Of a DNA stretch of 58,849 bases, positions 24,275-33,278 are shown piece after piece (position 1 is the stretch's first letter; each line of letters begins with the position of its first letter). The notes under the pieces were generated by a model. That model did no database searches, was not told the DNA's origin, and saw only the letters and a list, made by a program, of their open reading frames with translations. A program made the translations under genes and the position numbers. Origin of the DNA: Nitrospirota bacterium (GTDB lineage Bacteria; Nitrospirota; Leptospirillia; Leptospirillales; Leptospirillaceae); the NCBI GenBank assembly GCA_027314645.1, contig DAHVAL010000011.1, positions 1 to 58,849 on the forward strand, written 5' to 3'.

Positions 24275-24658
24275 TCAGGCCTGCCCGAGAGAATTTTGCC
24301 CAAACAGAGTCTGCGATTCTTTGGAGGCCTTCCGATAGGCTCCCTGGGGGCCCTGGCCTTTGAGGGAAGCGATCCGCAGGGCCAGGAGCCCGTCAGCTCG
24401 CCCAAACGGAGCCAGGGCACGGGTCAGGGCCTCGATCCGATGGGAAAGGACCAGGAGATCCGGGAGGGGAAGAGAGGAGAGGTCGAGAGGCCCGGAGGCA
24501 TCCAAGGCCTCTTGGGCGGTGAGGAGGGGCCCAAGATCGAGGGATTCGACCTCCGTAAGGGACAGCGGTCGGTGGACCCCGTCTTTATAAACACGCTCAT
24601 ACAGGCGGTCGACCTCTCCTCGAAACTCTTCGGCCACCGAAATCCGGGTCCCGTTCAT
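24275..24658 (-). CDS. Hypothetical protein at the fliT position
   Basis: 127 residues. Its ATG overlaps the fliS stop codon (ATGA), so it is translationally coupled to fliS. The sequence is helical and rich in Leu and Ser, with no membrane segment. Small helical chaperones such as FliT commonly follow fliS, which suggests an export chaperone, but I see no direct sequence match. It is the last gene before the ~215-base gap that precedes the glycosyltransferase operon. Confidence 0.6.
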   Translation of the reverse strand: MNGTRISVAEEFRGEVDRLYERVYKDGVHRPLSLTEVESLDLGPLLTAQEALDASGPLDLSSLPLPDLLVLSHRIEALTRALAPFGRADGLLALRIASLKGQGPQGAYRKASKESQTLFGQNSLGQA

Positions 24659-25104
24659 CCGCGCACCGACAGGGTTGGGCGAGGGAGTTCGGAGGGACCC
24701 GGACCGGCTTGTGGCGGGGTCGCTGGGGAAATCCGGACGGTGCTCGCGGCCGTTTTCCAGGTTCCGAGCAGGTCCGACAAGATCTCCCGGACCGGATCGA
24801 GACGGAGGGGTTCGTCGGCGATATTGGCCAGGGCCACCTCCTGGATCAGAAAAAGATAGAGCGAAACCAGCGAATCGGAGAGGTCCTTCGGCTCTTGACC
24901 GTCGACCGCTGAAGCCAGTTCCGAAAGAATCCCCGTCAGACGATTGACAGCATCGGCCCTTTTGGGAATATTTCCCGTCTTCATCGACTCTTTCATGATA
25001 TCCAGACACCGGATGGTTCCCTCATACAGCCGGATCAGAAGATCGGACGGACTCATGGTCTGTTCAAGCGTCTGTCGATACGTGGCAGCGGCAATAGGAT
25101 TCAT
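24655..25104 (-). CDS. fliS: Flagellin export chaperone FliS
   Basis: 149 residues. The N-terminal ~115 residues are typical FliS: YRQTLEQTMSPSDLLIRLYEGTIRCLDIM, then helices ending LSDSLVSLYLFLIQEVALANI. A Pro-rich tail of ~35 residues is added. FliS binds the C-terminal helix of flagellin in the cytosol, preventing early polymerisation and feeding it to the FlhA export gate. It follows fliD and precedes a fliT-position gene, the standard order. Confidence 0.92.
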   Translation of the reverse strand: MNPIAAATYRQTLEQTMSPSDLLIRLYEGTIRCLDIMKESMKTGNIPKRADAVNRLTGILSELASAVDGQEPKDLSDSLVSLYLFLIQEVALANIADEPLRLDPVREILSDLLGTWKTAASTVRISPATPPQAGPGPSELPRPTLSVRG

Positions 25105-26758: not shown

Positions 26759-27586
26759 CTAAGGGAGAAGTTTGATCGCTGCTTGAGGAAGCAGGTTAGA
26801 CTGGGCCAACACGGCGGCCCCAGATTGCGACAGAATCTGCCGTTTCGTAAACTTGGCGGTTTCTCCGGCGAAGTCCACGTCCCGGATCTGGGCTCGGGCC
26901 GCCTGCACATTGGTTGTGGCGTTATTTAGATTCCGGATCGTCCATTCCATTCGGTTCTGGACGGCACCGATGTCACCCTGCAGGGCGTTGATCCGGTCCA
27001 AAGCGACATCGAGCCGGTTTACCGCATTCAGGGAGTTGGGGCGACTGAGAATATCGGTTCCGTTGATTCCCATTTCACCGGCGTCCATCTTCCCGATATG
27101 AACATGCAACCGGTCGCTCATTGTCGTGTAGATACCCACATGAAACTTGTATTCCGGATGGCTTCCGTCAAAAAGTTTCATCCCGTTGAAGTCGGTCGTC
27201 TTCGCGATACGGGTAATTTCCGACTTGAGATGCTGGTATTCCTGGTTCAGCACCTTGAGGTCTTTCGGTGAATACGTGCTGTTTGCGGCTTGGATGGCCA
27301 GCTGCCGCATCTTCAGAATAATGGTGTTATCCGTCAGAAGGGCACCGTTCGCCGTTTGAAGAAGACTCGACCCGTCATTCGCATTCCGGATGGCGGCCGC
27401 ATAAGATCTCACCTGACCGCCCATACGCTGGGAAATCGAATACCCGGCGGGATCGTCCGCAGGGGAATTCACGCGGTACCCCGAGGAAAGCCGGTTGACG
27501 TGTTTCGCTAGGGCATTTTGGGTCTGGTTCAGATGGAACTGCGCATTTAGCGACGCAATGTTGTCGTTGATAATCAAACCACTCAT
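26759..27586 (-). CDS. Flagellin 1 (short, D0/D1 only)
   Basis: 275 residues from the ATG at 27586, which has AAGGAGGGAACC upstream; the longer in-frame start at 27649 is in the leader. It contains the conserved N-terminal D0/D1 region (LNQTQNALAKHVNRLSSGYR, NSPADDPAGYSIS) and the C-terminal region ending LSQSGAAVLAQSNLLPQAAIKLL. The central variable D2/D3 domains are essentially absent. It is preceded by a consensus sigma-28 promoter and followed by a strong terminator, so it is probably the main filament protein made late in assembly. It is the immediate neighbour of csrA::fliW, the likely regulator of its translation. Confidence 0.95.
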   Translation of the reverse strand: MSGLIINDNIASLNAQFHLNQTQNALAKHVNRLSSGYRVNSPADDPAGYSISQRMGGQVRSYAAAIRNANDGSSLLQTANGALLTDNTIILKMRQLAIQAANSTYSPKDLKVLNQEYQHLKSEITRIAKTTDFNGMKLFDGSHPEYKFHVGIYTTMSDRLHVHIGKMDAGEMGINGTDILSRPNSLNAVNRLDVALDRINALQGDIGAVQNRMEWTIRNLNNATTNVQAARAQIRDVDFAGETAKFTKRQILSQSGAAVLAQSNLLPQAAIKLLP

Positions 27587-27674
27587 GGTTCCCTCCTTGG
27601 GTTTTCCGGCCTCATCCCTGGCCTTGTCCTTGCTAATCCGGCGATTCAACCGAAGTCACGGTCCTCACCGTTCC
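27587..27674 (-). promoter_or_regulatory. GGA-rich flagellin 1 mRNA leader, candidate CsrA target
   Basis: The leader between the sigma-28 promoter and the flagellin ATG holds eight GGA triplets on the coding strand (plus-strand TCC at 27590, 27594, 27605, 27615, 27627, 27637, 27662 and 27672). Two lie in the Shine-Dalgarno region. One follows a small hairpin, ACGGT-GAGG-ACCGT (about 27656-27670), placing GGA in or beside the loop. CsrA dimers bind GGA in leader hairpins and block ribosome access, as on Bacillus hag mRNA. That CsrA acts here is inference. Confidence 0.55.
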
Positions 27675-27681
27675 AAGGATC

Positions 27682-27708
27682 TTTTCGGCAGGGTGCCGAA
27701 AAACTTTA
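27682..27708 (-). promoter_or_regulatory. Consensus sigma-28 (FliA) promoter for flagellin 1
   Basis: Minus strand: TAAAGTTT (27708-27701), 11-base spacer, GCCGAAAA (27689-27682). The -35 matches the enterobacterial FliA consensus fully and the -10 differs at one base. The TAA of the -35 is also the stop codon of csrA::fliW. The spacer and -10 form a perfect palindrome, TTTTCGGCA-CCC-TGCCGAAAA, which could also act as a stop hairpin for the upstream transcript. Confidence 0.85.
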
Positions 27709-28422
27709 GGAGGTTGCCACCTCTCCCTGCTGCGGGGGAAATACCCGCATGCGGAGCCAGGAGTCCGACTCCGCCAGAACGACCTGTCGTCCCATCCGGT
27801 CCGTTTCCCGGACCAGGAGCGGTCCCTGAAGATTTGCAGTGGCCTCGTCCTTCCCCTTCTTGGGAAAGGTGACGATCGCCATCGCCGAAAGACCTTCGTC
27901 CCCGGGGGTTCCGAAAAATTCCCTGTCCCATTCCGGCAAGACAATCCGGCTCATATAGTCGGGAACGAGGAGAACCGGATCGATGACAACAAAGGCCAGA
28001 GCGGGATCGTCAAGGGACTGGAGCCAATAAAAAACGGTCTCCTCCATCGTCTCCAGCAGCAAGAATCGGCGGGTCTGGGGAAAGCCCAGGAGACCGTCGG
28101 AAAAATGGATCAGTCGAGTGTCATCCACGGGAATCTTCCCAAAACGGGTCGTCTCAAATGTCCCCATCTTCCCTCCCCCGTCCGCGGCCGGACGGAGCCC
28201 ACCCCCGTCAACGCGTCGGGGAGAGATCCCGGTCGCCTTCCTGTTCTCCTCCATGATTCTGGCCAGAACTTCGTCCCGGTGGATGAGTATCCCTTCGGGG
28301 GCCTCGATGCCGAGTCGCACGGAGCCTCCTTTCACCTCCAGGACGACAATTCGGACGGAGGGCCCGATCCGGAGTCCTTCACCGATTTTTCTGGTCAGGA
28401 TAAGAATGGTCGTTCCTCCCAT
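27706..28422 (-). CDS. CsrA-FliW fusion protein: translational regulator and flagellar assembly factor
   Basis: One uninterrupted frame of 238 codons. Residues 6-64 are a complete CsrA (LILTRKIGEGLRIG, VVLEVKGGSVRLGIEAP, and IHRDEV with the RNA-contact Arg). About 20 linker residues follow, then residues 86-238 are a full FliW (ETTRFGKIPVDD, IHFSDGLLGFPQTRRF). Usually these are two adjacent genes: FliW binds flagellin or CsrA, and CsrA represses flagellin translation. The conventional start is the ATG at 28422, which has no Shine-Dalgarno. GGGAGG lies seven bases before an ATT at 28407, where the canonical CsrA Met falls. An internal GGAGGGAAG-ATG at 28167 could give free FliW. The gene follows flgL by 15 bases and precedes flagellin 1. 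Confidence 0.92.
   Translation of the reverse strand: MGGTTILILTRKIGEGLRIGPSVRIVVLEVKGGSVRLGIEAPEGILIHRDEVLARIMEENRKATGISPRRVDGGGLRPAADGGGKMGTFETTRFGKIPVDDTRLIHFSDGLLGFPQTRRFLLLETMEETVFYWLQSLDDPALAFVVIDPVLLVPDYMSRIVLPEWDREFFGTPGDEGLSAMAIVTFPKKGKDEATANLQGPLLVRETDRMGRQVVLAESDSWLRMRVFPPQQGEVATS
28165..28178 (-). promoter_or_regulatory. Internal ribosome binding site and ATG for free FliW
   Basis: Inside csrA::fliW, in frame, GGGGGAGGGAAG directly precedes the ATG at 28167-28165, exactly where an independent FliW would begin (MGTFETTRFG). The spacing of GGAGG to ATG is four bases. It could drive a second, FliW-only product, or be a relic of when the genes were separate. Confidence 0.5.
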
Positions 28423-28437
28423 TCATGAACGGGCCTG

Positions 28438-29376
28438 TCAGTGAAAGAGCACGTTCTGGAGATTCTGCAGAAGGTTCCGGCTCGCTTTGGAGGAGACTTC
28501 GAGAAGATTTTGCGCCAGGGCCATTTTGGAGGCCGCCTTTGGAATATCGACGTCTTCCGTCCCGCTCCGAAGGACCTTGAGGTCCGTCCTGTATCGTTCA
28601 AGCTTCGAGATGGTGCTCCGGAGGGAGCGCTCGTAGGCCCCCAGAATGGCCGATCGCTCCGAAATGGACCGGACCGCCGTTTCGAATTCCCCGATCGCCC
28701 GGTTGATCGCTCCATCGTCGTTGGTTTTGAGTCCGATGACAAATCGCCTCAGGGCGGGAAATGCCAGATTGGCCTCTGGGGTTTTCATCGAATCGCCGAG
28801 AATGTCATCCCCGTTCACCGTCGTCTCTATCAGGCCGGCCTCCCTGAATTTCGGGGTAAAACCTTGCTGGATTGTGGAAACCCGATGGTTCCCCTGGTAG
28901 GAAACGGCGTAGGGATCAATCTTTGGATCTCCCAAGAGGAAGGGGGGGATGGTGACATTGGTCCCGCCGAACAGGTACTGTTCCCCGCCGCGGGTGTTGG
29001 CCAACGCGACTGTCTCCTTAAGCAGGAGCGCCGCTTCTTCGCTGGTGATCCGACGGCTCTCGGCGTCCGCCGTCCCGTTGGCCGAAGCAATGGCAAGGGT
29101 CTTTGCCCGGATCATCACATTATCGATCTGAGTGAGAATGCTCTCCATAAGGGCGATCCGCGTGGCCCCCTGGCGTGCGTTCCGGATGATTTGCCCCGTC
29201 ACCGCCAAGGAACGGTTGATGCGCAGGGCCTCGCTCATAGCCTCGGGGGCATCGCCCGGAGTGTCGTCCCTCTTTCCCGAAGACACCTGGCGTTCAGCCT
29301 CGTACAGGTTTTCCGTCGCCCGGTCATGGTTGGCCATGACGGAGCGGTCAGTCATCAATCCCGTGACCCGAATCAT
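28438..29376 (-). CDS. flgL: Hook-filament junction protein FlgL (HAP3)
   Basis: 312 residues from the ATG at 29376, preceded by GGGGGAAGG; this start gives the typical N-terminus MIRVTGLMTDRSVMANHDRA. The flagellin-like N-terminal helix (ENLYEAERQVSSGKRDDTPGDAP in part) and C-terminal helix (SKMALAQNLLEVSSKASRNL) are conserved. FlgL forms the second junction zone between hook and filament. It lies 11 bases after flgK and 15 before csrA::fliW, so FlgK, FlgL and the regulator are likely one transcript. Confidence 0.93.
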   Translation of the reverse strand: MIRVTGLMTDRSVMANHDRATENLYEAERQVSSGKRDDTPGDAPEAMSEALRINRSLAVTGQIIRNARQGATRIALMESILTQIDNVMIRAKTLAIASANGTADAESRRITSEEAALLLKETVALANTRGGEQYLFGGTNVTIPPFLLGDPKIDPYAVSYQGNHRVSTIQQGFTPKFREAGLIETTVNGDDILGDSMKTPEANLAFPALRRFVIGLKTNDDGAINRAIGEFETAVRSISERSAILGAYERSLRSTISKLERYRTDLKVLRSGTEDVDIPKAASKMALAQNLLEVSSKASRNLLQNLQNVLFH

Positions 29377-29387
29377 CCTTCCCCCTC

Positions 29388-31067
29388 TCACCCGCTATTG
29401 GGGAGGTGGACCAGCGTGTCCAAAAGCCGGTTCACCACCTGAATGAGGCTGGCCGAGGCCTGGTAGGCCTTCTCAAAGCGAATGATCTTTGCAGACTCAT
29501 GGGCGATCGACACTCCGGAAACCGCCAGGCGCTGATTCTCAAGACTCCTCGAAAGGGCGACCTGGGCCTTGTCATTGAGGCGGGCCTCGCGGGCCCACGT
29601 CCCGATCTTTGCCACTCCCGAAGCATAGTATTCATAGATGGAGGAGGGTTCGTCCTCGCCAGGGAAGCGCAAATGCTTTTGGGAAAGATAGAAGATCTGG
29701 TGGGCATTCCCGTTGTCCCCTTCATTCAACCCCGGTTTTGTGGGGAATACCGCGACCGCGACATCGTCGGGAGAAAGATTGGCCACATTGAGATGCAGCG
29801 CCGTCCCTTTCAGGTGATCTCCTCCGGAAACCAGGAAGCTCTCCGAACCATTCTTCGGAGCGAGCACACGAAGGGAATATCCTCCTGCAGAGACTTGAGC
29901 CACCCCGTCCTTGATCACTCCGCTTCCAAGAAGGACATGATCCTTTTGGGAATAGACCTTGACGGATTCTGGGTCCGCCTCGACCTCCACCGCGGGCACC
30001 ACGGCGGAAGGATCGTCCACATTGGCGACCACCGCTGCGGTCCCCCCTCCCGAAAGGCGGGTCACATCCACCGTGGGCTGGAAAAAATTCACCCCGGTCT
30101 GTCCCGACAATCCATACCCTTTGGCATGAATGGCATTGACACTGTTGGCGAGCTGGTAGGCCAACACGTCGAGGTGGTGCTGCAACGCCTTCATCTTGTG
30201 GTCCCTGACATCCAGATACCCCCCCAGATTTCCTCCCGTGACCCGGTCGGTGATGTCGATCGGGGGCCCGGAGTGGGAGGGCGGGAAAAACTCAATCCTG
30301 TAGCGGTCATGGACGGGATCGAACACGGCGGTCATATGACCGATTTCCTGATCGGAAAACGCGGATTGACCCCCGATGTGAAGATTGAGCGTGCCGTTCT
30401 TGTCATGAAAAAAGTGGGCATTGGTCAAACGGGAGACTTCCAGGGTCAGGCGCATCCGCTCGTCCAGAAAGGTGTTGGGGTCCTCCCCGCGACCCCGCGC
30501 GGCAAGAATGTCGTGATTGAGTCTCCCGATCCGGGCGATCCGTCTGTTGATTTTCTTGACCTCGTCGTCCACCGCGTGGCCAAGGCGATTCCTTGCTTCC
30601 TCATAAAGGCCGCTCATCTGATGGAAGTCCTGGGTAAGATTCTTCGCGTTTGTCACCAGGGTCGCGCGTGCGGCGCGATCTGCCGGATGGTTCGCCACGG
30701 TCTCCCAATGGTTGAAAAAATGGGACAGGTCGTGGGAGAGCCCTTCCGATTGTGCATGAAAGTAGTAGGAATCGATCTCTCCCAGAGAGATCCGCGAGGT
30801 CTCCCAGAAGCCGAGGCTCGTTTTCTGGCGGGCGGATTGATTTTCGAGGAAGTGATTGACCAGTCTGCGTATCCGAAAAGCGTCGACACCGTTCCCCATC
30901 ATTCCGGGATGGCCGATGTCGGGGATATGCTGTTCGAAATCGACCCGCTCCTGCGAATAGCCGGGAGTGTTCACGTTGGAAAGGTTGTGGCCGGCGGTCT
31001 TAAGGGCCGCCTCGTTGGCTTCGACCCCGGATTGTCCGATGTTCATGGCGCCGATGATGCCTGACAT
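29388..31067 (-). CDS. flgK: Hook-filament junction protein FlgK (HAP1)
   Basis: 559 residues from the ATG at 31067 (GGAGG six bases upstream; a TTG two codons earlier is less likely). It carries the rod/hook-type N-terminus (MNIGQSGVEANEAALKTAGH, then NLSNVNTPGYSQERV) and the C-terminal helix ending SLIQVVNRLLDTLVHL. FlgK forms the first junction ring on the finished hook. Length is in the usual range. It sits between flgN, its probable chaperone, and flgL. Confidence 0.95.
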   Translation of the reverse strand: MSGIIGAMNIGQSGVEANEAALKTAGHNLSNVNTPGYSQERVDFEQHIPDIGHPGMMGNGVDAFRIRRLVNHFLENQSARQKTSLGFWETSRISLGEIDSYYFHAQSEGLSHDLSHFFNHWETVANHPADRAARATLVTNAKNLTQDFHQMSGLYEEARNRLGHAVDDEVKKINRRIARIGRLNHDILAARGRGEDPNTFLDERMRLTLEVSRLTNAHFFHDKNGTLNLHIGGQSAFSDQEIGHMTAVFDPVHDRYRIEFFPPSHSGPPIDITDRVTGGNLGGYLDVRDHKMKALQHHLDVLAYQLANSVNAIHAKGYGLSGQTGVNFFQPTVDVTRLSGGGTAAVVANVDDPSAVVPAVEVEADPESVKVYSQKDHVLLGSGVIKDGVAQVSAGGYSLRVLAPKNGSESFLVSGGDHLKGTALHLNVANLSPDDVAVAVFPTKPGLNEGDNGNAHQIFYLSQKHLRFPGEDEPSSIYEYYASGVAKIGTWAREARLNDKAQVALSRSLENQRLAVSGVSIAHESAKIIRFEKAYQASASLIQVVNRLLDTLVHLPNSG

Positions 31068-32037: not shown

Positions 32038-32898
32038 CTACGGAATGAGCTTGACGGCCGCCTGAGGAATCTGGTTTGCCTGGGCCAGGACGGCCGTTCC
32101 CGACTGCTGAAGGATCCGGTCCCGCGTAAACCGGGCCGTTTCTTTCGCAAAATTCGCGTCCTTGATCTGGGATTTTGAGGCCGCGATGTTGACCAAGGCG
32201 GTGTTCAGGTTCCGAATCGTCCAGGTCATTCGCTGCTGGAATGCCCCCAGACTTCCCTGGATTCGGTTTAGCTTATCGAGGGCTCCGTCGATGGCCGAGA
32301 TCGCCGAAAGGGCCATTGTCTCGGTGATGACCGACGTCATTCCGAGGGGGATGATCAAGGTTTTTTCATCATAGAGTCCCAGAATGTCGCTGCTGATGGA
32401 GGGGACGGCAATGGACAGCCGGTTCTCCCCTTCCGTTCCGACATCCACCTGGAATGTCAAACCGTCCTCAAGGCTTCCATCGAGCACCTTTCTTCCATCG
32501 AAGTTCGCGACCTTGGCGATCCGGTTAATTTCGCTCATCAGGTGCTGATACTCGAACTGGAGTGTCGACAGATCGGTGGGACTGTACGTCCCGTTCGCCG
32601 CCTGAATGGCAAGCGAACGCATCTTGATCAAAATTTCGTTGTCGGTCAGAAGCGCTCCGCCGATGGTCTGGATCAGATTGGCGGCGTCGTTGGAGTTTCT
32701 GACGGCCTGCTGGACCGACTTCATATAGGAATTCATGACCTGACCGATCGCGTACCCGGCCGGATCATCCCCCGGTGAATTGACCCGATACCCGGAAGAC
32801 AGCCGGTTGATCGTCTGGCTGAGTCTGTTCTGGGTCTCGTTCAGATTGTATTGGGCTCCGAGAGACGCCGCATTTGTATTGATGACCAATCCACTCAT
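32038..32898 (-). CDS. Flagellin 2 (short, D0/D1 only)
   Basis: 286 residues with GGAGGTGAGTC before the ATG. Conserved ends: AASLGAQYNLNETQNRLSQT, LSSGYRVNSPGDDPAGYAIG, and the C-terminus LQQSGTAVLAQANQIPQAAVKLI. It is clearly paralogous to flagellin 1 but differs in the middle and is slightly longer. It follows flgJ by only 11 bases and I found no sigma-28 promoter of its own. It therefore appears to be transcribed with the rod and ring genes from the flgF sigma-54 promoter, which suggests an earlier or constant minor filament component near the hook. Confidence 0.94.
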   Translation of the reverse strand: MSGLVINTNAASLGAQYNLNETQNRLSQTINRLSSGYRVNSPGDDPAGYAIGQVMNSYMKSVQQAVRNSNDAANLIQTIGGALLTDNEILIKMRSLAIQAANGTYSPTDLSTLQFEYQHLMSEINRIAKVANFDGRKVLDGSLEDGLTFQVDVGTEGENRLSIAVPSISSDILGLYDEKTLIIPLGMTSVITETMALSAISAIDGALDKLNRIQGSLGAFQQRMTWTIRNLNTALVNIAASKSQIKDANFAKETARFTRDRILQQSGTAVLAQANQIPQAAVKLIP

Positions 32899-32909
32899 GA
32901 CTCACCTCC

Positions 32910-33278
32910 TCATACAGTGACCGACATGACCACCGGACGGACAGGGGAGAGAGACGGGACCTCTGGCAACCCTGCGCCTTTCCGGGCGTCATCGACAATC
33001 TGCCGGGCAAGACCGAATCCTCCCGCGCCCACCAGTTCCTTCGACAACTCCTTCTGATACAGATCCTGTGCAAGAGAGAATCCGGGTGTCCGGCTTTCCT
33101 CGTGCGAGACCGGAATCGTCTTCCACATCTCCCGAACCATCCTTTCCACCACCATGGCCTCAAAGCGCCGGGCGGACCGCTCGAGCTTGCTTTCCTTCCT
33201 GGCCGCAGGCAGGCGACCTTCTCCGGGTACATTGAACCTTTCCCGGGTCACCGCTTCCGGCAAACCTTCCGCCTGCAT
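32910..33278 (-). CDS. flgJ: FlgJ-like rod-binding protein (no muramidase domain)
   Basis: 122 residues. The conserved rod-binding segment is visible: ARRFEAMVVERMVREMWKTIP, then LAQDLYQKELSKELVGAGGFGLARQIVDD in two parts. The C-terminal peptidoglycan hydrolase half found in enterobacterial FlgJ is absent, as in many other phyla, so another enzyme must open the wall for the rod. GGAGGGGATCG precedes the ATG, ten bases after flgI. Confidence 0.88.
   Translation of the reverse strand: MQAEGLPEAVTRERFNVPGEGRLPAARKESKLERSARRFEAMVVERMVREMWKTIPVSHEESRTPGFSLAQDLYQKELSKELVGAGGFGLARQIVDDARKGAGLPEVPSLSPVRPVVMSVTV

Follow-up and report, generated by a model that had tools for sequence, protein, structure and literature searches.

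What becomes of a partner switch when two of its partners are joined in a single polypeptide? In B. subtilis, Hag, FliW and CsrA form a partner switch with separate proteins, and the complex structures 5DMB and 5DMD belong to this Hag-FliW-CsrA system of B. subtilis and Geobacillus thermodenitrificans. Here we analyse a locus within the window (the whole 58,849-nucleotide stretch of DNA presented above) in which csrA and fliW share one frame beside a flagellin gene, and consider which proteins that gene is likely to yield and how flagellin would act on them.

The fused frame and its domains

On the minus strand, a single frame (27706..28422) stays open for 238 codons and encodes a full CsrA followed by a full FliW. 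The CsrA part matches Pfam PF02599 (residues 7-57, E 1.6e-17, over the curated cut-off) and TIGR00202 (75.6 bits against a cut-off of 70.1). The FliW domain is present over its full length, with Pfam PF02623 covering residues 105-225 (E 3.6e-29, over the curated cut-off, profile positions 1-120 of 122) and the solved FliW 5dmb_A matching over 142 residues; the NCBIfam FliW equivalog cut-offs were not reached by the fusion protein. Between EENRKAT, which closes the conserved part of CsrA, and the FliW start at Met86, the linker measures about 21 residues. The original prediction had placed CsrA and FliW in one polypeptide with a stop-free linker of about 20 residues, and this is borne out by both domains exceeding their cut-offs in one frame and by the agreement of 12 assemblies; of the frame that it assigned, 27706-28422, the end holds, and the start very probably lies five codons further inside. 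The features of the gene and its upstream neighbour are as follows.

27706..28407, minus strand: csrA-fliW fusion gene, 233 codons and a stop when read from the likely AUU, with its Pfam domains and 12 genus members as evidence
28408..28422, minus strand: fusion leader, with a GGAGG Shine-Dalgarno at 28419-28415, 7 nt before the ATT at 28407; the ATG at 28422 is a mechanical start only
28231..28407, minus strand: CsrA domain with its C-terminal helix; I51, N55 and R44 kept
28168..28230, minus strand: linker of 21 codons, including the FliW Shine-Dalgarno GGAGG at 28176-28172; probably disordered in the model
28165..28167, minus strand: retained internal FliW start codon ATG; ATG or GTG in 12 of 12 fusions
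27706..28167, minus strand: FliW domain (PF02623), the probable free FliW product
28438..29391, minus strand: flgL, directly upstream of the fusion; TIGR02550 over cut-off

Among 14 genomes of the window's genus, an uncultured group of Leptospirillaceae related to Leptospirillum, the window's own included, the fusion is uninterrupted in 12, and the 11 other proteins are about 63-73% identical to that of the window. In a 13th member (G086) the gene is split over two contig ends. Another (G100) gave no match to the fusion gene and none to flgL either, so that it provides no evidence for an unfused state. The fusion is, judged from these genomes, fixed in the genus. A whole-genome search of the window's assembly (95% complete, a 2.04 Mb draft in 69 contigs) found no second csrA or fliW; as no further copies were found, the fusion gene is the sole source of CsrA and FliW in the assembly, and CsrA appears to exist solely in fused form.

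Residues V51 and N55 of C. jejuni CsrA are needed for FliW binding (PMC7829508). In the C-terminal helix of all 12 fusions I51, the equivalent of C. jejuni V51, and N55 are kept, as is the RNA-binding R44 in the domain that matches the CsrA profile. With these three residues kept and a flagellin leader of the CsrA type beside it, the fusion has parts that look functional. A modest AlphaFold model (mean pLDDT 62.6, from eight sequences) resolves the strands of CsrA, a helix (44-59), a linker of low confidence (58-79) and, from residue 81 on, the strands of FliW; docking of the two domains is not shown by this single, uncertain model.

Translation starts of csrA and fliW

In this family the usual MLILTRK start of CsrA reads ILILTRK. 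The first codon of csrA is ATT throughout L004-L014, L027, L029, L032, L043, L045-L047 and L055, except for ATA in L012 and ATG in L008 and L009; the other Nitrospirota inspected start csrA with ATG. Of the 18 members with ATT or ATA, 17 lack any ATG, GTG or TTG from the upstream in-frame stop to the start, and in two of those 17 the stop and the ATT are one codon apart. In the remaining case, that of the window, ATG 28422 precedes the GGAGG that serves the ATT. We rejected this ATG as the true start, since it is absent from the relatives and the GGAGG lies 3' of it; the true start is very probably ATT 28407, giving a protein of 233 residues. An AUU is not essential for the arrangement, because L008 and L009 start csrA with ATG.

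AUU is a start type known to limit expression, and E. coli infC starts at AUU. As a separate observation, infC in the window's own genome (L073, 1440 onward) has no ATG, GTG or TTG after its in-frame stop and reads CTG ATT AAT at the expected place, which fits an AUU start like that of its E. coli counterpart. In S. aureus, the non-canonical starts of cvfC1 (AUU) and ccpN (AUA) lowered yield, and E. coli pcnB is a further precedent for a non-canonical start as cited in the same paper (PMC13009471). The csrA genes described here resemble infC, pcnB, cvfC1 and ccpN in combining a conserved non-canonical start with a preceding Shine-Dalgarno and no canonical alternative, and differ in that the AUU-start gene is csrA, a case on which our literature search returned nothing relevant. 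By analogy, the AUU may limit the amount of CsrA in this family.

A second start is retained inside the fused frame. In the alignment column that holds the first codon of separate fliW genes, 10 of the 12 fusions have ATG and two have GTG, amid neighbouring linker residues that vary, and residue 86 of the window's protein aligns with residue 1 of 5dmb_A. Predicted anti-Shine-Dalgarno pairing upstream of this codon averages -10.0 kcal/mol, compared with -4.8 kcal/mol at the remaining in-frame ATG or GTG codons in these genes (Mann-Whitney p = 2e-5, assuming the canonical 16S anti-Shine-Dalgarno sequence, a p-value that is optimistic because related sequences were pooled). GGAGG stands at a usable spacing before the internal start in most fusions, being weak in L007 and less well placed in L012-L014. 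Since both start codon and Shine-Dalgarno are kept, free FliW is a likely second product, probably made alongside the fusion. Both starts, AUU for csrA and the internal one for FliW, are present in the sequence and had been overlooked in the original prediction.

Were the internal start instead a silent relic, the gene would yield the fusion only, and flagellin would set a purely intramolecular switch. The continuous frame conserved in 12 genomes, the mild constraint on the linker and the weak internal Shine-Dalgarno of L007 all accord with that reading, but a start codon that stays invariant amid varying neighbours, preceded by a generally strong Shine-Dalgarno, makes it unlikely. The earlier proposal that an intramolecular switch replaces the two-protein equilibrium therefore survives in part: a covalent protein with functional-looking parts is supported, but the kept internal start speaks against a FliW that is purely intramolecular. 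Given the probable free FliW, a two-protein equilibrium would persist beside the tethered one.

Conservation and origin of the fusion

Apart from one in-frame indel, exactly three codons long, the linker has the same length in all 12 fusions. Linker dN/dS ranges from 0.24 to 0.78 (mostly 0.3-0.6), compared with at most 0.08 for CsrA and 0.07-0.20 for FliW, values from which the linker is weakly constrained as coding sequence.

In the sister genera (L027, L029, L032, L043, L045-L047), csrA and fliW overlap by exactly 4 bases, either ATGA or GTGA, the frame offset of fliW is 2, and a stop ends csrA at the fliW start. The N55 codon lies 113 or 116 nt from the fliW start in these genera, compared with 75 or 84 nt in the fused genus, where the frame offset between csrA and fliW is zero and the csrA tail has lost its TPDQM segment; the ATGA tetranucleotide is still present in six fused members (L004-L009). 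The simplest reading is that, in the ancestor of the genus, the csrA tail underwent a single net shortening, out of frame, which carried the frame past the overlapped stop into that of fliW. The sister Leptospirillaceae are otherwise alike in position beside flgL where checked, in the AUU start of csrA and in the fliW start codon, and differ in having two overlapping genes in different frames and a longer csrA tail. One sister genome (G037) has two csrA-fliW pairs, L052/L047 and L053/L046, both with a GTGA overlap and an ATT csrA start.

Across 396 Nitrospirota genomes, every full-length match outside the genus carries at least one stop, and the fusion is therefore limited to this genus among those seen. 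A candidate second fusion in another family (G060, a 254-aa frame) was rejected on account of a TGA between the domains. Because the sister genes overlap one frame apart and the other full-length Nitrospirota matches have a stop, the fusion probably arose once. Beyond Nitrospirota the survey was limited: in Bacillota (398 genomes searched) the best four loci, to which that verdict applies, have separate csrA and fliW genes. The phylogenetic spread of the architecture, which the original prediction had proposed to map, thus comes out as one fused genus within Nitrospirota, with shallow coverage outside it, and other CsrA-FliW architectures may exist in protein databases.

A further alternative is a neutral tether, in which the csrA stop was lost by drift, each domain keeps its earlier role and the link has no effect. 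Since the ancestral genes overlapped, co-translation was in place beforehand, and the parts of the ordinary switch are retained; we nevertheless consider this quite improbable, as members of the genus have diverged deeply without the frame closing and the linker has a dN/dS below 1 and a sole indel that is in frame. The fusion could also be a precursor whose linker is cut by a protease, yielding ordinary separate CsrA and FliW. A variable linker that is predicted to be disordered would suit this, but the linker alignment reveals no conserved cleavage motif and the linker is under mild purifying selection, so that processing of this kind seems improbable too. That a linker stop or frameshift was missed through sequencing or assembly error, conceivable in a draft genome of 69 contigs, has a negligible chance of being right and is rejected, because 12 assemblies of different species all share the open frame.

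The flagellin leader and a candidate switch

Directly downstream of the fusion lies the likely target of the switch, with two predicted CsrA sites in its leader.

26759..27586, minus strand: flagellin 1, the likely regulated target, directly downstream of the fusion; Pfam flagellin N and C domains; ATG 27586 is probably its true start
27608..27623, minus strand: leader hairpin GGCC-AGGGATGA-GGCC, whose loop holds a GGA; likely CsrA site 1, conserved in the genus
27591..27598, minus strand: flagellin 1 Shine-Dalgarno AAGGAGGG, likely CsrA site 2; varies little among 8 leaders from the family

The flagellin 1 leader thus has one GGA in a hairpin loop and another over the Shine-Dalgarno, as predicted sites of a CsrA-repressed flagellin mRNA. 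Its layout matches that of the C. jejuni flaA leader, where the ANGGA of SL1 and that of SL2, which lies over the ribosome-binding site, were footprinted and mutated (PMC4894983); C. jejuni differs in that csrA and fliW are separate and non-adjacent. Within the genus the four-pair stem is not unusual by itself compared with shuffles, and the hairpin as a statistically strong element on its own is unsupported there. The stem reads GGUCC/GGACC in the sister genera and reaches nine pairs in L047; the case for the hairpin rests on a GGA loop that is conserved while the stem changes. For the second flagellin (32038..32898) the leader is a plain AGGAGG one (window 32899-32950, minus strand) with no GGA-loop hairpin, which makes flagellin 1 the likelier target, and the two flagellins may differ in CsrA control. 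Elsewhere in the window, within the flagellar cluster, a 244-aa frame beside fliS (24275-25009, minus strand) has no Pfam match and overlaps the fliS frame at 24655-25009.

Together, the fusion, its single copy, its conservation, the retained internal start signals and the AUU start, all read from the sequence itself, are best accommodated by the known flagellin-FliW-CsrA partner switch operating from one gene with two translation starts, a model that we hold to be slightly better than an even bet. The AUU start would yield little CsrA-FliW, the cell's sole CsrA, and the internal start would yield free FliW, so that FliW would exceed CsrA; we infer both products and their ratio, as we do the release of CsrA by flagellin. 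While flagellin is exported through the filament, tethered and free FliW would hold CsrA off and flagellin 1 would be translated. Flagellin accumulating inside the cell would saturate free FliW first and then compete with CsrA for the tethered FliW, and the freed CsrA dimer would bind the flagellin 1 leader at its GGA sites, in the hairpin and in the Shine-Dalgarno, and block translation. More tentatively, and as a proposal that falls somewhat short of an even chance, stoichiometry may be hard-wired in one gene, the rare AUU start setting the tethered CsrA-FliW and the strong internal start a free FliW buffer for flagellin, to give a thresholded intramolecular switch in which the level of CsrA may respond to IF3.

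Compared with the switch of B. subtilis and G. thermodenitrificans, the locus is alike in both domains, in the FliW-binding N55, in a flagellin leader with GGA sites and in adjacent csrA and fliW, whereas it differs in having one frame, with csrA ahead of fliW, in place of separate proteins. A literature search, with subscription papers largely outside its reach, found no paper describing a CsrA-FliW fusion; within that scope, the parts and the switch are known, and the fused, two-start arrangement is new. The AUU start of csrA would add a further control point on a global regulator, apparently unreported. Furthermore, the partitioning of FliW, CsrA and flagellin is usually studied as a three-way equilibrium, and a natural fusion that removes free CsrA and seemingly keeps free FliW offers a ready-made test of the roles of diffusion, stoichiometry and allostery.
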